A DNA stretch of 64,000 bases, taken from assembly GCF_002368415.1 (NCBI RefSeq), contig NZ_AP018293.1, forward strand, positions 1 through 64,000. Direction: 5' to 3'. The position numbers were made by a program, and so were the translations under genes. Shown here one piece after another: positions 26,008 to 34,806 of the stretch (its first letter is position 1; every line of letters starts with the position of its first letter). The notes below the pieces were generated by a model. The model saw only the letters and a list, made by a program, of their open reading frames with translations. It had not been told where the DNA came from and searched no databases. The DNA comes from Calothrix sp. NIES-4105 (GTDB taxonomy: Bacteria; Cyanobacteriota; Cyanobacteriia; Cyanobacteriales; Nostocaceae).

Positions 26008-26606
26008 TTATTGCCCGTTTGGGAGTGCTGAAGCGCGAGAAGGCGCCTCCATAATTTCAAGTACCGTCTCAAACCATCTTAGGTGCTGGACTGTCTTATC
26101 GCGACCCTTCGCTGTGCCTAATGTCAGTTGTGAATATGGCTTACCTTTTTCAGTTGCAAGATAATCAGGATTACCCTCTGGGTTACGCACTTGAAAACCT
26201 TGTTCAGTTAAAAGCTTGTTAACACGCTGCGGCGACCAGGTATCACCAGTGCGTTCTGCGAGTATCTCACCTAATTGTTTCGGCGCCAACAATTTTTCTT
26301 CCATTGGAATAAGAAGCATCGATTTTGCTTCTTCTGCTTCTGGTAACAAGTGCGGATACCTTTTACCTATAGCGTTGAGCTTGGCGCCTGCGACTAATTT
26401 TACGTCAAGTCCCGCTTTTCCAAGTGTTAGGTCAAGCAAGGTGGAGATTTCTTCCAAGGTCGGTGTTGGAAGTTGTGGTTGTGGTTGTGGTTGTGGTTGT
26501 GGGCTAGAGTGTTCCCAACCTTTGATTCTCTGCATCCAAGTTCTGATGCCGATAGTAGCGAAAGCTTTATACGCTAATTTTGCCTGCTCCGTACAATTCT
26601 TTCCTG
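26008..26606 (-). pseudogene. 3' exon of an intron-split plasmid DNA-binding protein gene
   Basis: Continuation of the gene whose 5' part is at 34379-34662. Reading from the intron end gives GKNCTEQAKLAYKAFATIG, then IRTWMQRIKGW, then a Pro-Gln repeat (encoded by six GGTTGT units at about 26470-26502), then a domain ending with a likely winged helix (LAPKQLGEILAERT, PQRVNKLLTEQGFQV) and a terminal helix. An ATG at 26535 lies inside the exon but is not the natural start. Together with the 5' exon the product would be about 293 residues, of a cyanobacterial plasmid/phage-type protein that I know only as hypothetical. The 5' exon has a one-base frameshift, so the gene is probably inactive or the sequence has an error. 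Confidence 0.65.
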
Positions 26607-26649
26607 GATAGAGTCGATGCCCGGTATTATCCGGGGCACCTCTCTGTTC

Positions 26650-26683
26650 GATCCGGACGTGTAACTTTCGCTACATCCGGCTC
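26650..26683 (-). ncRNA. Group II intron A domain V
   Basis: 34-nt hairpin starting GAGCCGGATGTA and ending TCCGGATC around a GAAA-type loop region, followed by the domain VI helix GCCCCGG-ATAATA-CCGGGC. This is the catalytic core of the intron. Confidence 0.8.
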
Positions 26684-26692
26684 TCGATATTC

Positions 26693-27697
26693 TCAAGGGA
26701 TAACCCTATTGCCCATGTGTATGTAATCGTGACAAGATTCATGAATGACCACAAGATTGACTTTCTTCCAGTTATTATGGTTTCCATCAATGTGGTGCAG
26801 ATGAACGTGTTCATCATTCATAAATTTCATACCGCAATGAACACATGTATGGTTTTGTTTTTTTAGTAATCTAGCTTTTTCGCCATCATACATCTTACTG
26901 TTTCTTTCACTCCAGTAGCACACGTCGCCATCGAAAGGAGATTTATTTCCTTTTACTTTAACGTATCCTGCTAGAGAGTAAGGTACAGTCGGAAAGGCTT
27001 TTTTTATTAGTTCTAGGGTAGAGTATCTTGTTTGTTTCTTCTCTTTATTGAATACCTTGAATGCTCTGTGACTCATGAACCATAAAGAGAATTTTGTTCC
27101 TGACATATCACAAAATTTGTGATAGTTTCTCCACCCTCTTACTATTGGGGCAAGCTTTTCCGCTTTTTCCTTAGCACCATAATTGGAGCAGTTTACAATG
27201 GATTTTACTTTTTCTCGGAACTTTTTAAAGTTTTCTTCTGACGGAACGCAGTGATACTTCCCGTTTGATTTGACTTTAAAATTCCACCCTAGGAAATCAA
27301 ATCCGTCTGTCGTGCGTGTTACTTTTGTCTTTTTCTCACTTATTTTCATTCCTCTTTTTGCTAGAAATTCGTTAATTTGTTCAAGTATTTCTTCTGCTTT
27401 ATCTTGGGGTCTTAGGAAGATTACCATATCATCCGCATATCTTATGCTGGGGTATATGATATCTTTTTCTTTGGTTTTTTTCGTAATTCCACAATCATCT
27501 TTATGATGCCTGTGAATACTTTCAATTCCATTTAGTGCTATGTTTGCTAGTAATGGACTTACCACTCCCCCTTGACATGTTCCTTGTTCTGGAAATTCTG
27601 GATTTGTTCCTGCTTTTAGGCATCTGAATATGCCGATTTTGAGATTCTTAGGAGCTATCAGATTTTCCATAATTGAGGAATGAGAAATTCTATCGAA
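26693..27697 (-). CDS. Maturase A, segment 3 (RT catalytic, X and HNH domains)
   Basis: 334 residues beginning FDRISHSSIMENLIAP. It holds QGGVVSPLLANIALNGIE (RT4), the catalytic SIRYADDMVIFL (RT5), GFDFLGW (RT7), the X/maturase domain, and an HNH endonuclease at the end (CVHCGMKF, HLHHIDGNHNN, CHDYIH). An ATG at 27670 exists but the true frame comes from the spliced segments. The three segments total 583 codons, the normal size for HNH-type intron proteins. Confidence 0.85.
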   Translation of the reverse strand, partial: FDRISHSSIMENLIAPKNLKIGIFRCLKAGTNPEFPEQGTCQGGVVSPLLANIALNGIESIHRHHKDDCGITKKTKEKDIIYPSIRYADDMVIFLRPQDKAEEILEQINEFLAKRGMKISEKKTKVTRTTDGFDFLGWNFKVKSNGKYHCVPSEENFKKFREKVKSIVNCSNYGAKEKAEKLAPIVRGWRNYHKFCDMSGTKFSLWFMSHRAFKVFNKEKKQTRYSTLELIKKAFPTVPYSLAGYVKVKGNKSPFDGDVCYWSERNSKMYDGEKARLLKKQNHTCVHCGMKFMNDEHVHLHHIDGNHNNWKKVNLVVIHESCHDYIHMGNRVIP

Positions 27698-27758
27698 AGT
27701 GGGTAGCTAGCTAACGAGGTTTCCGTTTATTTGGTTCCTTTTCTAACTAGCCCCCTCC

Positions 27759-27792
27759 GAACCGTGCTTACAAGTTTCCAGGTACACGGCTC
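27759..27792 (-). ncRNA. Group II intron C domain V
   Basis: 34-nt hairpin GAGCCGTGTACC-TGGAAACT...GCACGGTTC with GAAA tetraloop, followed by domain VI with a bulged adenosine (GGG/ACCC). Confidence 0.8.
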
Positions 27793-27806
27793 TCCAGTAT
27801 TCTTAT

Positions 27807-29591
27807 TTACGGAACTCGTTTACCTGTTGGTTTACCTGCATGTATTGCGTCGTGGCATTGAGAGCAGACCATGAGAGTTTTCCTTTTACGTGCGGACATA
27901 ATTTGCATCCATTGCGGTAAATCCTTTCTACCCTTAATTTTGAGGTCTTTAAGGGCGCGAATATGGTGAACTTCAATGTTGCCTTTTGCCCCACAGATTT
28001 CACATTCATCCGCGAGAAGCCGCTTGATTAATTCATTTCTAGGTGCGGGTTTTCTTTGTGTTGATAAGTCTTCTATGGTTGCTTTTAGGTTACGTTTTAA
28101 TTGTATTCCTCCGAAGCGAGCTACCAAGGGTTTCTTTCCCTCAACTGGGACGGTTATTTCAACACACTTTCTTAAACCTTGTGGAAGTTTTACCGTCTTA
28201 ATATAACGAGCGCAAATTTTATTCACGCTTGTCTTATGTTTACAGGCAAGGGTTTTCATCAATGAGGTTGACATAACCCATTGTAGTTTTCGGAGCCATG
28301 CAATATTTTGAGCAAGGCTATAGAATTGTACGTACCCTCTAAACTCTGATTGAAAAATGTTGATGATAGAAAAATCATCATCATTTATTAATTCAGGACG
28401 ATGAATGGGTTTACCATTCCTCATATATAAGGTACACTTTTCTTCTATAACTTTGGCTGGTATTCTTAGTGCAACAATTCCGTTAATTGAGCGTTTACCA
28501 TTGGTATGCTTATCATCGGAATATTGGACTAATATTTCGTACCCCAAAAATTTTGCTGCTTCATTCCTAGCGTTAGTAATTAAGGTCTTTTCTGGCGACA
28601 ATTCCAACTGAAGTTTTTCGGCTAGAAATATCTTGACTTTTTCCTTAATTGCTTCTGCTTCAGTGAATGAACCAATAAAACCAAGTAGAAAATCATCAGC
28701 ATAACGGACGTAATTTAGCCTTCTGTATTCCGGGTCGCGAACGTCTTTGGATGGCATGTGCTGGTATTTAATTTCCAGTTGACGCGCTTTCTCAAATTGT
28801 CCGTTTTTCCTGTAGTACCAGGCTAGTTTTACAAGTTTTGAGTACTCTGGATTTTCTGCCCGACATTTGCCGCGTGTATACTCTGGGATGAGTATCTGCT
28901 CGATAAATTTATCTAATTTATCAAGATAGATATTTGCGAGTATGGGTGATAAAATCGAGCCTTGCGGCGTTCCGCTAAGGGTAGAAAAATATTTCCATTG
29001 CTCGCAGTAACCTGCTTTAAGCAAGTTTTCAATTAATCTTAGGAAGCGGTTATCTTGAATTTTCTCGCGTAGGATTGACATTAAGATTTTATGGTCTATA
29101 TTGTCAAAACACCCACGAATATCTCCTTCGATAAACCATTTAGTTCCTTGCCAAGTGCGGTCTATTATTGTTAATGCCGTGTGGCATCCGCGCTTGGGTC
29201 TAAAACCGTGACTGCTGTTAGAAAATTGGGGTTCGTAATACGCTTCTAATATTAAACGTATTACTTCCTGAACCAATTTATCATTCCAAGTAGGAATACC
29301 TAAAGGTCGGGTTTTCCCATTTTTCTTAGGGATATTAATTCGTCGTACTGGTGTCCATTGAAAACGTTCATAGCGAATATCCTCTATGAGGTCTTCAATC
29401 TTTTTAATGGACATCCCATCAACAGTCTCTGATGTAACTCCTTGCGTCATTGCCCCATCATTTTTGTAGATACGACTATACGCGAGAAGGTACAGGTTAG
29501 GGTTGAAAAGTTGCCTGTAGATATCATCCAGAGGTAAACCACGATAACCTCTGTCTCGAATTACACTTAAAACCGTTTCGGCGTTTCGCAT
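27807..29591 (-). CDS. Maturase C (group II intron reverse transcriptase with HNH)
   Basis: 594 residues from ATG 29591 (MRNAETVLSVI...), which has GAGAGG upstream; the frame also opens earlier at 29714 but that part is intron sequence. RT motifs: SYGF-equivalent SHGFRPKRGCHTAL, GDIRGCFDNIDH, GTPQGSILSPILANIYLDKL, VRYADDFLLGF, AAKFLGYE. The C-terminus carries an HNH domain (CEICGAKGNIEVHHIRAL and CSQCHDAIHAG). It belongs to a different lineage from maturases A and B, with the YRGLPLDDIYRQLFNPNLY start typical of another class of intron proteins. Confidence 0.87.
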   Translation of the reverse strand: MRNAETVLSVIRDRGYRGLPLDDIYRQLFNPNLYLLAYSRIYKNDGAMTQGVTSETVDGMSIKKIEDLIEDIRYERFQWTPVRRINIPKKNGKTRPLGIPTWNDKLVQEVIRLILEAYYEPQFSNSSHGFRPKRGCHTALTIIDRTWQGTKWFIEGDIRGCFDNIDHKILMSILREKIQDNRFLRLIENLLKAGYCEQWKYFSTLSGTPQGSILSPILANIYLDKLDKFIEQILIPEYTRGKCRAENPEYSKLVKLAWYYRKNGQFEKARQLEIKYQHMPSKDVRDPEYRRLNYVRYADDFLLGFIGSFTEAEAIKEKVKIFLAEKLQLELSPEKTLITNARNEAAKFLGYEILVQYSDDKHTNGKRSINGIVALRIPAKVIEEKCTLYMRNGKPIHRPELINDDDFSIINIFQSEFRGYVQFYSLAQNIAWLRKLQWVMSTSLMKTLACKHKTSVNKICARYIKTVKLPQGLRKCVEITVPVEGKKPLVARFGGIQLKRNLKATIEDLSTQRKPAPRNELIKRLLADECEICGAKGNIEVHHIRALKDLKIKGRKDLPQWMQIMSARKRKTLMVCSQCHDAIHAGKPTGKRVP

Positions 29592-30102
29592 CTCGCGTAC
29601 CTCTCGATACAAGTGTTTTGGAATACCTGTTCCCCTTCGCCATGTGGGCGGCTTTCCCGTCCTCGGACTACTATGGGAACTCTGTAACCATAGGGGTCGC
29701 CCCCCGTAGGTCATCCCGCGCTTTATTAACTTGGTACGTATCAGTGTGATTTAGGTGTCCCATTCATTCCTTAAGCCATCTCATCGGTGGCTGACTTCGT
29801 TTGAAGGAGTTGTATAGTTCAAATGCTTAAAACTACACACAAACGATTATTCCTTTTAGGCGTTGTAGGAATAGGCAATCGAGTATACCGTCAGAATTGG
29901 GCTTCAAGTAGTTTAACTTTCACCGTGTCACACAGGTCTTGCCGAACAATAGTTTTAACGCCTTCTCTCTATTCCCGGCTTTACCAACATGCTGTTGTCC
30001 CCTTTGTCTTTCGACTCCAGGTTAGTTGGTTGACCTAGAGACTATCTCCTTATTCTCTCCCAACTTTGGGTTGGGGATACCGTATTAACTGTCACGGCGC
30101 AC

Positions 30103-30201
30103 GCACTTCTCTATATCGAGTTCTATAACCCGTTTAGATATTCCATTTGCGCTAGCTTTCATGTTTTGTGCAACCTGCTGTTGGGCATCGTGTGCCGAAC
30201 G
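30103..30201 (-). CDS. Maturase A, segment 2 (33-codon mini-exon between introns B and C)
   Basis: 99 bp encoding RSAHDAQQQVAQNM...RVIELDIEKC. It completes the reverse transcriptase motif GFRPGRSAHDA on one side and the first catalytic Asp region LDIEKCFD on the other. Too short to be noticed without its neighbours. Length divisible by three and both junctions keep the frame. Confidence 0.8.
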
Positions 30202-30241
30202 AGTAAAGTCAGCGACTCCCTCACGAGAGCCACTGCTCTTC

Positions 30242-30276
30242 AAAACCGTGCTTGAACCTTTAGATTCACACGGCTC
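30242..30276 (-). ncRNA. Group II intron B domain V
   Basis: Hairpin GAGCCGTGTGAAT-CTAAAGG...GCACGGTTTT, followed by a domain VI helix (CAGTGGCTC paired with GAGTCGCTG) and a likely branch A seven bases from the end. Confidence 0.8.
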
Positions 30277-30295
30277 CTCAATAATTTGGTGTTTG

Positions 30296-32080
30296 TCACA
30301 CATACCTCATAACCAACATATCCTCCTCCCAAAACCAAGTAAGCTTGGAGGGTGGTTTAGGCTCGGCACTATTACAGCCGGATTTATTGCCAGGACTGCT
30401 ATCTAAAGCCGTCTTTGTGTCGTGGCAGTGCCTGTGTAGAAGTTGCCAATTTTTATATTCATCCTTACCACCTCTCGATTTGGGGATGATATGGTCAATT
30501 TCCATCACATCGTTTTCACGAAAAAACAGACCACAGTGGGCACACTTTCCTTTTTGCCATTTTAAGAGTGAAGCCACCCTAGATGGCATTTCTGGGTTGT
30601 TGCCCATTCTTGTACTCCAGTAAACCAAATTACCGTCGTATGGGGATGATTCGCCTTTGACTTTTATATGACGCACTATTTTAGTGCGCGTATGGTCAAG
30701 TAACCTCAGTGGGTTTTCCCCTGCTTCCTTGGTTGCGAATACCCAATTATCACCATCTATTGAGTGCCAATATTTTTTTGACACCCATGTGCATGATTTT
30801 TTGGGGTGACGGAATTTTGCCCAAGAGACAAGTTTTAGGTACACCAGGTTATCTAAAAATGCATAGATTTCCTTGCTTATGACAGTAGAGTAGTAATTAG
30901 CCCAACCCCGGATAATCGGGTTTAATTGTTTGATGAGCGCCGCTTGCGGTGCTGCTTTATGGGCATCAATTACATGTGCTAAATGGTCATAATGTGCCTT
31001 AACTTTTTCTTGACTTGGGGTGATGATGGTTTTAAAACCGAGTTTTTCTCCTTTGGTATTTTTACCTGTATGGTGTTTCCCTTTAGGAAACTGACGTATA
31101 TTGAAACCAAGGAAATCAAACCCTGGTTTTTGCCCTTCAAATGTTGATAGGGTATGTGTCAGCCTTGTTTTACTAGGTTTTAATTCCAAGCCATAGTCGT
31201 TTAACCATTCTTCTATTATTTCCTGGCATCTGGTAACAACGGTTATGTCTTCGTGGAGAATCACAAAGTCGTCGGCATAGCGAATTAATGTAGCTCCTGG
31301 TTGATAGCCAGAATATTTGCCTTTTTGTTGGATTGTACCCTTGGGAAAGGCTTGTTTAATTCGGTTTTCCATCCCGTGGAGGGCAATATTTGCCAAAAGC
31401 GGTGAAATAGTACCGCCTTGTGGTGTTCCCTCAGATGTTGGAAATAACTGCTTATTATCCATCACCCCCGCTTTTAACCACGCACGTACTTGACGGCGGA
31501 TGGTGGGGGATGTATTTAATTTGTTAAGCAGTGCTGAATGGTTGATTTTGTCGAAACATTTCGATATGTCGGCATCCAACACAAATTTTGGTTTGTATCT
31601 AATGCAGTTAAAAATTGCCTCGATTGCATCATGACATGACCTTCCGGCTCTGAACCCATATGAGTTCGGTTCAAATCGCGCTTCCCATTCTGGTTCTAAG
31701 GCGATAAGGGCAAGCGTTTGCAAGGCGCGGTCTTTCATTGTAGGTATACCTAAAGGTCGTTTTTCATTCTTCCCAGGCTTGGGAATCCATACACGCCTAG
31801 TTGGACTAACCTTAGAACCCAGTTTTAGTTGATTGATTAGAGTTAAACGTTGCTTTGGGGTCAGCGATTTAACGCCATCCACACCTGCCGTCTTTTTTCC
31901 TCTATTATCCTGGGTAACTCTACGAACCGCTAACACTCTTGCTGACCAGGAATTCATCAACGTTTTTTGGAGCCTGCGGTATGCTTTTACATCGCCACGT
32001 TGAGAGGCTCGATAAATTCTCTGTTGCAGCTTATACACCCTACGCTCCAGCTTTCGCCAGTTAATAGAGCGCCATTCCAC
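30296..32080 (-). CDS. Maturase B (group II intron reverse transcriptase with HNH)
   Basis: 594 residues. RT motifs include VTQDNRGKKTAGVDGV, NSYGFRAGRSCHDAIEAI, LDADISKCFDKINH, GTPQGGTISPLLANIALHGM and IRYADDFVILHED; GFDFLGFNIRQFPKG marks RT7; the HNH domain is CAHCGLFFRENDVMEIDHIIP plus LLHRHCHDTK (shown in parts). The frame opens with GTG at 32080. Just upstream, ATG at 32108 gives MSNTSFKTG in another frame; one extra C at about 32081 separates it from VEWRSINWRKLER, so the native start may be frameshifted. Promotes splicing and mobility of intron B. Confidence 0.85.
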   Translation of the reverse strand: MEWRSINWRKLERRVYKLQQRIYRASQRGDVKAYRRLQKTLMNSWSARVLAVRRVTQDNRGKKTAGVDGVKSLTPKQRLTLINQLKLGSKVSPTRRVWIPKPGKNEKRPLGIPTMKDRALQTLALIALEPEWEARFEPNSYGFRAGRSCHDAIEAIFNCIRYKPKFVLDADISKCFDKINHSALLNKLNTSPTIRRQVRAWLKAGVMDNKQLFPTSEGTPQGGTISPLLANIALHGMENRIKQAFPKGTIQQKGKYSGYQPGATLIRYADDFVILHEDITVVTRCQEIIEEWLNDYGLELKPSKTRLTHTLSTFEGQKPGFDFLGFNIRQFPKGKHHTGKNTKGEKLGFKTIITPSQEKVKAHYDHLAHVIDAHKAAPQAALIKQLNPIIRGWANYYSTVISKEIYAFLDNLVYLKLVSWAKFRHPKKSCTWVSKKYWHSIDGDNWVFATKEAGENPLRLLDHTRTKIVRHIKVKGESSPYDGNLVYWSTRMGNNPEMPSRVASLLKWQKGKCAHCGLFFRENDVMEIDHIIPKSRGGKDEYKNWQLLHRHCHDTKTALDSSPGNKSGCNSAEPKPPSKLTWFWEEDMLVMRYV

Positions 32081-32724
32081 GCCCTGTCTTGAAACTCGTA
32101 TTAGACATATTTACTGCTACTGGAAACTTCATCTTCCAAATCATCGTGATTCTGTCTGCATATCCTTACCATTACAGTCAGGCGTTTGCTTCTGAACCAA
32201 TCTTGCCTACTCGTAGTATTGGTTAGCACCTACTCAGCCATAAGGACTGAGAACATACGAGAGGTTACTTCGTTTCTGACAGTCATTGTTAGAGTTTTTA
32301 GAGCGGTACTATCCACCGGGTTTAGAGGAAGTGCTTGTTGGACACCCAGGACCTTGCCAACTCCCCATTATCCCTGCTCTTTTGAGACTCCCAGCGTAAA
32401 CAGCCTTATTGCGCTGGTTATTCATGACGATGGTTCAAACATACCTTCGTATTCCTACTCATGAACTCTTGCTTGATGTATACCAGATTAGGCTTCTAGT
32501 ATTTAACACCTTTCACCCCCGCTTCAAGGATTGATGGCGTGAGGAGCTACCTTGGGGGACACAGTTCGAGACTGCGCTCTGTGTGCTTTCACTCCTGCAC
32601 CTGGAGGATGGGACTTAAGTCAATACTTTCACCCATATGACTATCAAATTGTCAAAGCTACTAAGTAACTTTGTGGGTAGTCCTCCACCCTTTTCAGGGT
32701 TAGTTTATACCCAACGAATCGCAC

Positions 32725-33369
32725 GCCCGGTCTAAAACCGTAGCTGTGTGGCTCAAAAGTAGTTTCAAAGAAAGGTTCCCAAGCGTTTAGAACAACTCCC
32801 TGTTTTACCCTATCAATAATGGTGGGAATTGAGAGCGGTCTAAGTTTGCCTTTTGCCTTGGGAATATATATCCTTTTTGCAGGTAATATATCCTCGGCTT
32901 TATGCGTCATAACTTTGTCAATTAATTTGACTCTTTCATGAGGCGTAATAGCAATAAAGCCATCTATCCCAGCAGTTTTTTTACCTTGATTAACTTGTGT
33001 CACTTTTCTGATAGCAAGAAGTATATTTGAAATACTCCGAAGCATCAGCTTCATCAGGCTTTTGGCTTTACGCAGTTTGCCTAATTGGGTAGCACGAAAA
33101 ATTCTCATCCTCAGTTTCTTTACGTTACGGGTCACGGTCTTCCAATTAATGTCAGCCCATGATTTAATAACGCCTTCTACCGCAATCTTGTTGCCAAGTC
33201 CATTGCTCATAAAAGTGCTTTTACTTCTTACTAATGTTTCATTTTCGTCCAAGACCAGATGAAAGTTTGCCGTATTTTCAACGTTGGGTGATGTTGTTTC
33301 CTCAACCCATATCTCCTTCATTACAAAGGAGCTTTCGCTTTTTTCATCCTCCTTTACCCCCCTTGGCAT
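32725..33369 (-). CDS. Maturase A, segment 1 (N-terminal reverse transcriptase part)
   Basis: Residues 1-215 of the intron A protein. After a charged N-terminal leader it has the RT0-RT2 region: INWKTVTRNVKKLRMRIFRA, VTQVNQGKKTAGIDGF, RIYIPKAKGKLRPLSIPTI and HSYGFRPG, where intron B interrupts it. In the raw sequence the frame runs on into intron B for 26 codons, which would make a truncated protein without splicing. MSNGLGNKIAVEG inside the leader is an alternative start. Confidence 0.8.
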
Positions 33370-34378
33370 CTTTTTGCCTTACGGCATCAATACTTGGGTA
33401 TTAAATACCACAAGACCAATTTGGGCTTACCATGTTTTGTATGTTGGATATGTAATGTGTTGGGTTCCGTCGTTACTCCGGGAGGTGTAATGGCAGTCGG
33501 ATATTACACAGCGTCATAATATCCCAACCTCCTTGCCTTTTGGCTATGGGTGTAGTCAAGTCATATATCGCATGGTGCGATTTTCACCCATATATGTAGG
33601 ATGACGAAGCAGTCACGGTTTGCTATCGCTAACCCAATCACATCTTTCCCTTGCCAACACTTGGTTACCGTGACTTCGGTTAGGTGACTAATCACCGTGT
33701 GGCTTTCGTGGTCTGCATTCCGATATCACCGTTACCAGTTTTATCGTGACCGGGGTCAGTAACCCCTTTTACGTAGGAACCAAGTTACTGCTCCTTGGGG
33801 AGAGTCGGTTCTCCAATCCAATTCGGTATTTCTACCTCATACAACTTCACGTCGCACCGCAGCATCCTACCCGTTTAGAGAGATTTCCGTATCTCGTAAT
33901 ACCTACTAAGAATCGACTTTTCTTAGACTCTCAAAACGTTTTTATTCGTTCCCTTAATCGACTCTTTATCCCTTTAGATGTAGCCACTTTGCCTATCAGA
34001 CCCCTGGTTCTTATAACTATATTGACGATTATGTTATAGGGATTAGCTCTGATAAAGTCGGGGTTTTGTTGTTATGCCCCGCTTACGCGTAAGACACTTT
34101 TTTAGGCTCTGTTTCATCGTGGGGACTCCCCATTAGCACCAGTGTCAGCCCATAACAGCCGTCTGATTGTGCCCTGTTCCCAGCTTCAGCCTGTATAAAC
34201 CGAGTATACTCACTGTGGGCAGGTTGGGAGTTAGCGCGAACCTCGCTAGCAGGGTTTGCACCTGCATCGGATTAAGAGTTCAGTGTATAATCGTGAGATT
34301 ATATTTCACTGCTTGAGTTATACCTCGAATCCTTATTTGCTAAGGATTCTTGCGATTTCACTCAAGAACGAATCGCAC

Positions 34379-34662
34379 CGTCAAGTGCATAGTATTCAAG
34401 GATTATCGCTTCGGGCAATATCTGGAATCCCACGGGAACACCAATCAGTCAGGTTCGCACACTCAAAGCCTTGCTGAATAAGCTTTTTCGCTAATTCTGA
34501 TGGTGAATGGTTCGCACTATTAAATGCTTTCCTTAATGCCATATCACTCACGCCTGCTAGTCTTCCTGTCGCGCGAATACTAGCTTTTCCTCTCCCAGTA
34601 GTATCTACTTCAATTTCCGATTCTATTTGTTCAACAACCGAGGCTATTTCTAAGAGTGCCAT
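34379..34662 (-). pseudogene. 5' exon of the intron-split gene, with a +1 frameshift
   Basis: Starts at ATG 34662 (GGAG 11 bases upstream). The translation MALLEIASVVEQIES continues through GRLAGVSDMALRKAF and LIQQGFECANLTDW to GIPDIAR, then hits a stop at 34396. Dropping one A in CGAAGCG (about 34410) gives AIILEYYALD, which runs straight into the intron boundary and joins in frame with the 3' exon. Exon lengths 284 + 599 = 883 bases, that is 3 x 294 + 1, agreeing with one extra base. The ATG at 34746 is further upstream and less likely. Intron insertion and frameshift are both read directly from the sequence. Confidence 0.65.
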
Positions 34663-34806
34663 AATGATAAATGCTCCGTGAGCTATGTGTTTTGGACTGC
34701 CATGAAAGCGAGGAGGAGCGTATATAATGCGTACACCCGCATTCAATAGTGGTCACTTAGGAATGCGGAGTGAGACTCCTTCATTACGCTGCAAGAAAGC
34801 AAAGAA

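Follow-up and report, generated by a model that had tools for sequence, protein, structure and literature searches.

Three group II introns, designated A, B and C, were found nested in a 64,000-nucleotide (nt) stretch of Calothrix sp. NIES-4105 DNA (NZ_AP018293.1, positions 1 to 64,000; hereafter the window), in which the maturase gene of intron A is interrupted by both intron B and intron C (Table 1). The three nested introns of the original prediction, which had been made from the letters of the window alone, were confirmed, and the phenomenon is larger than was described there: intron C has invaded the reverse transcriptase (RT) genes of other introns repeatedly and site-specifically, both in this genome and in other genera, and the nest is no one-off pile-up. 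The whole of the data is very probably best explained by group II introns that are site-specific and reside in the catalytic core of other such introns.

The three domain V hairpins and the three GTGCG starts that had been predicted were located on one (minus) strand, the former as RF00029 (domain V/VI) matches that each exceed the gathering score (ends at 26608, 27698 and 30203) and the latter at 34378 (A), 32724 (B) and 30102 (C), all three in agreement with GTGYG. The 3' ends of A and B (26607 and 30202) were placed one base beyond the end of the Rfam match, as needed by the reading frame and by the second copy of B, and no family was matched when the Rfam models of domains I-IV were run against A, B and C at E 0.5. 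B and C lie wholly within A, and the outer sequence is continuous after their removal: scripted excision of 32724-30202 and 30102-27698 gave 215 + 33 + 334 amino acids, that is 582 amino acids plus a stop, in accordance with the 583-codon frame predicted. Cuts at FRPG/RS (by B) and EKC/FD (by C; the slash marks the junction here and below), with a 99-bp mini-exon left between them, were borne out by codon-exact junctions, and the placement of both insertions within conserved motifs was judged right. The joined maturase A was matched end to end by RVT_1 (127.4 bits, 1-205), as compared with 22.7 and 65.2 bits for the separate pieces, and it was also matched by RVT_N and GIIM of Pfam. The 33-residue block of the mini-exon is kept in all 29 uninterrupted relatives fetched (56-64% identical to A), none lacking it, and the alignment over residues 205-260 of maturase A is free of gaps in 28 of the 29. 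An intron-encoded RT/maturase is present in A, B and C, that of A only once B and C have been taken out in silico; the three RT/HNH proteins of the original prediction were upheld in their RT part for all, and in their HNH part for B and C (Pfam, E 0.001), the HNH-like motif of maturase A being seen by eye only.

The closest solved relative of the intron-encoded protein (IEP) of C was LtrA (5g2x, E 9.6e-123; next relative at 1.4e-41), and that of the IEP of B was 6me0 (E 6.8e-105), which we take to be the maturase of the Thermosynechococcus elongatus type. RVT_N and GIIM are shared by A and B, and C has instead Intron_maturas2 and an AI2M-like HNH. The lineage names ML/IIA (C) and CL/IIB (B and A) are taken by us as labels for these IEPs. 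As judged by its closest solved structure rather than by a reference tree of lineages, C is LtrA-like and assigned to the ML/IIA lineage; B is, by the same kind of match, CL/IIB-like, and A likewise through the domains common with B rather than through a structure match of its own. The domain and structure matches together point to introns of ML/IIA type and CL/IIB type inside one CL-type maturase gene, and the two different intron lineages that had been proposed are in keeping with this.

Four copies of C were found in the 12.04-Mb genome (the window, L015, L016 and L017), all of them at RVIELDIEKC/FDRIS of another intron's maturase, adjoining the catalytic Asp of the RT, and all four IEKC-type sites found in this genome are occupied by C. 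The copies differ by 0-1 base over 2405 nt, with T at nt 1192 of C common to L016 and the window, and C at this position common to L015 and L017. L015 and L016 hold one and the same twintron, duplicated within a 4658-nt unit whose flanks differ between the two places, and three independent hosts of C were therefore counted in the genome. These are A (window), D (L015) and E (L017), which are 71-74% identical in their 3' kb. In Scytonema tolypothrichoides, four copies of C without any difference in 2399 nt are carried by hosts which are 70-78% identical, the host of L057 giving no blastn match to the others; the hosts of C-type introns include both A-type and B-type maturases. The presence of C at an identical codon junction in three more loci and in other genera excludes chance. 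Arrival of C within complete twintrons, whether through transposition as DNA, through gene conversion or through vertical inheritance, instead of repeated homing, is improbable: the twintron of L015 and L016 was indeed moved as a unit, and gene conversion among resident copies could make them look younger than their actual age, but near-identical copies of C are seated in the diverged hosts A, D and E, identical ones in four diverged hosts of Scytonema, and the hosts belong to both maturase types. Repeated homing into a fixed site is preferred. The 4658-nt unit itself (host D with C inside, at ~6.69 and ~10.10 Mb) has its differences clustered at the ends, one of which looks hairpin-like, and the twintron of L015 and L016 may be carried by a DNA transposon-like unit.

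Genome contigs were scanned with the IEP of C, and 10 loci were obtained in seven genomes. Two further C-type sites (L093 and L094) were added by a sample of 388 genomes of the order, 9 of which were matched at E 1e-120 (the own genome and distant cousins included), indicating that C-type introns are rare, and two Nostoc sites (L108 and L109) were added by a plasmid search. In a phylum sample for the cousins of C, 2 of 386 genomes were matched at E 1e-80, the own genome included. In total, 18 distinct C-type loci (at least 77% DNA identity, the four of the source genome included) were found in several cyanobacterial genera. Fifteen of the 16 readable 5' junctions are at IEKC/FD or IAKC/FD, 13 of these 15 being seen on both sides; loci lacking the 5' junction, namely L059/L097 of Microseira (first 75 nt missing; treated as a single locus, since their matches do not differ) and L061 of Fischerella (a fragment of ~190 nt), stand outside this count. 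In a tree of 34 IEPs, the nine C-type rows, L056 among them, form one group with a support of 100/100. An assembly artefact was rejected as practically excluded: assemblers can be misled by identical repeats, but the nesting is repeated in other genera and in the two Nostoc plasmid records, and the junctions are codon-exact. In L059/L097, the C-type IEP is split by a stretch holding an opposite-strand intron with a B-type RT.

The targets of these introns tend to be matched by the sequence of each intron itself. Nucleotides 277-282 of C (GCATTT), as exon-binding site 1 (EBS1), pair with the last six exon bases, AAGTGC in the window, as intron-binding site 1 (IBS1), and at the same aligned position other introns of the group fit their own exons: CCTTTC with GAAAGG (L098 and L116), ACCGTG with CACGGT (L114 and L117), ATGCAT with ATGCAT (L111) and GTCGTC with GATGAC (L100). 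The EBS1-IBS1 score of 24 introns was 228, as against a shuffled mean of 147.4 (standard deviation 11.8), and that of the less redundant 14 was 134, as against 79.8 (standard deviation 10.5), with 0 of 20,000 shufflings as high in either case; the score was taken as the best of seven registers for observed and shuffled pairs alike, and relatedness is incompletely removed from it. The target itself, AA(A/G)TGC/TT(C/T)GA, is present in 28 of the 29 uninterrupted A-type maturases, the exception being L140, and such a near-invariant target provides a large reservoir of empty sites for C.

The distant cyanobacterial relatives of C were also found inside other group II introns (7/7 examined), one at RYADD/FVVF of the host RT (L100) and the others at the host domain V hairpin (L095, L096, L098 and L198, together with L102 on the 5' side only and L099 on the 3' side only); the joined flanks fold into a domain V-like hairpin in L095, L096 and L198, and less cleanly in L098. 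Short weak DNA matches in 7 of the 11 matching genomes (G672, G229, G675, G679, G142, G016 and G017) are left out of this count. The domain V cousins have relatives in Streptomyces, Priestia and Microvirga. The IEP of C was matched by 611 plasmid records, of which 21 were fetched, the two Nostoc records and 19 others from other phyla holding 20 introns. Seven of these 20 were placed within a host domain V or at its base (three of them one-sided), 6 in transposase-like motifs recognised by eye, presumably those of insertion sequence transposases, and 7 elsewhere or at places that were not assigned. The domain V label requires four changes on the 34-IEP tree, so that the domain V habit has either had several origins or is an old one with later losses. 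In the Streptomyces plasmids L113, L114, L117 and L153, LtrA-type introns are seated at the 3' base of other introns' domain V, and nesting at a ribozyme core is thus not confined to cyanobacteria. Another nest was found in G674, which shares the family of the source strain: maturases are cut at GGVV/SPLLAN by an intron with its copies at contig ends (5' sides in L199-L201, 3' sides in L198, L202 and L203), and domain V of the L198 host is additionally occupied by a cousin of C.

An absence of any preference for introns, in which the codon string would be merely a common multi-copy sequence and any similar site would be entered, is doubtful. It is favoured by L056 of Brasilonema, a C-type intron at EEY/FHP in a transposase-like gene, and by the 6 of 20 introns of other phyla in transposase-like motifs, but 15 of the 16 readable C-type sites and all seven cyanobacterial cousins lie in group II introns; in part it is no rival, target abundance and dedication being indistinguishable from position alone. 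The site entered by L056 resembles the usual target, and the EBS1 there is the unaltered one (GCATTT against GAATAC).

For intron B, one further full-length copy was found in the genome (L019, 90% identical), at FRPG/RS of another RT and with its IEP frame broken. Relatives of B were matched in 142 of 243 genomes, and 29 were fetched, their flanks reaching 1500 nt at most and in some cases stopping earlier with the contig. The view that B has long been a dedicated parasite of introns was rejected: 27 of the 29 relatives (63-78% identical) have no RT match in these flanks, the exceptions being L078, where a partial RT stops 49 nt upstream, and L089, which has a tandem copy. For intron A, the outer boundary agrees with a homologue of the host gene that lies uninterrupted on a plasmid of Calothrix sp. 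PCC 7716 (77.4% identical), and relatives of this gene were found on plasmids. As compared with Calothrix sp. PCC 7716, one nucleotide is inserted in the host gene ~40 nt ahead of A, by reason of which this gene may be dead. Its 3' exon carries a Pro-Gln repeat.

From these sequences, the following course of events is proposed. A, CL/IIB-like, would have settled in a gene with plasmid relatives, and its maturase gene would have been invaded by B and C. The lineage of C would recognise, via EBS1-IBS1, the near-invariant codons upstream of the catalytic Asp of CL-type maturases, and C, perhaps also B, would retrohome from intron to intron by base pairing; the cousins of C would have EBS1 tuned to other invariant parts (the YADD codons and domain V). 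B and C would each splice from the host RNA with their own maturase, restoring the mRNA of maturase A, which would be made only from RNA freed of both. The protein of A, and thereby its mobility, would then depend on B and C. The dependence of A's mobility on prior splicing of B and C, as it stood in the original prediction, may fairly be drawn for the protein of A, and the ribozyme of A may splice without their removal, since the ORF (open reading frame) of a group II intron loops out of domain IV. A site whose alteration would cost the host its RT would be protected from decay as a target. In the available part of the Trichodesmium erythraeum report, an insertion at a site essential to the host intron is likewise assumed to maintain the inner intron (PMC4649490).

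Against this course, an unlikely alternative is that B and C landed in a non-working intron, that nothing splices, and that the open frames reflect recent insertion. The 1-nt insertion in the host gene of A, copies of C too young for decay, the broken IEP frame of the second B copy and the broken hosts of L052, L060 and L094 are in its favour, but in the window no maturase frame of the three is broken, that of A being exactly restored, the frame of B in the window is open despite a ~10% difference from the L019 copy, and a dead target does not explain same-site insertion in many hosts. Working introns homing into the cores of others remain preferred, and the following observations weigh against them. 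The EBS1 pairings are poor in L095, L112, L113b and L115, and when EBS2-IBS2 of C and EBS1 of B were looked for, none was identified. Compatible IBS1 sequences without C are present in B (AAATGT/TTCGAC) and in its second copy (AAGTGC/TTCGAC), the sites of other group II RTs of this genome are likewise free of C, and one empty IEKC/FD site occurs in G678, presumably the Scytonema (four 86% identical copies of 2399 nt); from the empty sites of B, its copy and G678 it follows that occupancy is incomplete, and saturation of the targets in carrier genomes is not claimed. To these are added the exceptional position of L056 and the 5' part of the host RT in L052, L060 and L094, which is frameshifted or truncated, these hosts being probably dead. 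C itself is damaged or cut in L058, L059, L060, L061, L094 and L109, has an insert in L056 and has a stop in L093. A low ratio of nonsynonymous to synonymous change (pN/pS) in the host ORFs is mostly older than the arrival of C; selection on host frames after that arrival is not claimed. None of the 29 relatives of B is clearly nested at an RT codon, and the habit is claimed for the lineage of C only.

A wider reading, which we hold to be somewhat better than evenly poised, is a guild of hyperparasitic introns that would permanently inhabit invariant catalytic cores and would have control over the mobility of their hosts. Its sites are FRPG/RS (B), IEKC/FD (C), GGVV/SPLLAN (the G674 intron), and YADD/F and domain V (cousins of C). 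If this is true, the target would be kept intact at sites for which any drift would be fatal to the host intron, and the host RT or ribozyme would work only if the parasite splices.

Table 1. Features of the nested introns and of the gene interrupted by intron A (positions in the window).
Feature	Positions	Strand	Remarks
Intron A, 7772 nt with guests, 2844 nt without	26607..34378	-	GTGCG start, RF00029, empty site in Calothrix
Maturase A coding piece 1, 215 codons, ends FRPG	32725..33369	-	
Intron B, 2523 nt, at FRPG/RS	30202..32724	-	second copy at identical junction in L019
Maturase of B, 594 amino acids; RVT_N, RVT_1, GIIM, HNH	30296..32080	-	
Domain V/VI of B	30203..30278	-	RF00029 47.0 bits
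Maturase A coding piece 2, 99-nt mini-exon, 33 residues, ends EKC	30103..30201	-	
IBS1 of C, AAGTGC	30103..30108	-	pairing with GCATTT of C
Intron C, 2405 nt, at IEKC/FD; four genome copies	27698..30102	-	
EBS1 of C, GCATTT, intron nt 277-282	29821..29826	-	
Maturase of C, 635 amino acids as listed ORF (real start possibly more internal); RVT_1, Intron_maturas2, AI2M-like HNH	27807..29714	-	
Domain V/VI of C	27698..27794	-	RF00029 51.9 bits
Maturase A coding piece 3, 334 codons + stop, begins FDRI	26693..27697	-	
Domain V/VI of A	26608..26685	-	RF00029 51.9 bits
Candidate EBS1 of A, CGTCAA, intron nt 352-357	34022..34027	-	6/6 pairs with exon end TTGACG
5' exon of A's host gene, frameshifted ~40 nt before A	34379..34746	-	
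3' exon of A's host gene	26008..26606	-	

Elsewhere in the window (36153-63688), genes of an ABC (ATP-binding cassette) transporter with HlyD-like and C39-peptidase components lie beside a 6856-codon ORF; immunoglobulin-like (Ig-like) and cadherin-like repeats were found in the 4856 codons of it that were scanned, and a giant surface or secreted protein is probably encoded.

For the annotation of genomes, RT genes cut by nested introns resemble fragments, and, in the part of the source available, a survey program is described as unable to detect the outer intron of a twintron (PMC8919778). Twintrons could be regarded as a predictable ecology, in which one lineage inhabits the catalytic core of another at hardly changeable codons and RNA stems, as an RNA-element counterpart of the inteins and homing endonucleases seated in active-site codons. 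Three questions become accessible with one strain, namely whether inner splicing licenses outer mobility, in what way an intron is retargeted by a change of EBS1, and whether the parasite disarms another mobile element to the advantage of the cell.

Homing of group II introns into other introns is already known, and the lineage of C with its sites looks like a new variant of it. By its title, a 2003 paper of Dai and Zimmerly on Methanosarcina acetivorans reportedly deals with homing into the ORFs of related group II introns, and entry into an intron ORF is therefore not new as such. In Euglena psbF, the inner intron lies in domain V, an insertion that resembles those of C's cousins; we know of no autonomous introns at RT codons among the Euglena twintrons. 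The Euglena chloroplast twintrons are, in the available part of the source, introns in introns of an organelle (PMC4424553). The same partial text describes group II introns of Methanosarcina which home site-specifically into group II introns, up to five being nested, in a perpetual homing site, and whose flanking exons are without coding ORFs (PMC4424553); around C, the host frame is kept. Unlike the Methanosarcina introns, the LtrA-like C enters the RT-motif codons of various kinds of CL-type introns in several cyanobacterial genera and stands beside a second lineage.

The F1/F3 twintrons of T. elongatus, as far as the portion of the paper at hand describes them, consist of outer introns that have diverged and of inner ones that are identical and always occupy one site (PMC2882425), and this is the same kind of evidence as that given for C. 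In that portion, F3 has no ORF, is of one stock with its hosts and lies between the first two start codons (PMC2882425), a position that would allow production of the host IEP even if the inner intron were not spliced; C, in contrast, has its own maturase, is of another lineage than its host and cuts the RT core. For the Tery_4732 twintron of T. erythraeum, nested group II introns with sequential splicing in vivo are reported, in the part of the article available, as one twintron in one protein gene, of which the authors knew no homologue in other bacteria (PMC4649490). In a literature search of incomplete coverage, no report was found in which a lineage of introns has RT-motif codons, or the domain V of bacterial introns, as its dedicated site. 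As compared with these systems, what differs here is an autonomous intron of another lineage than its host, seated at a codon site of the RT core in several genera, with relatives that appear tuned to other core sites.

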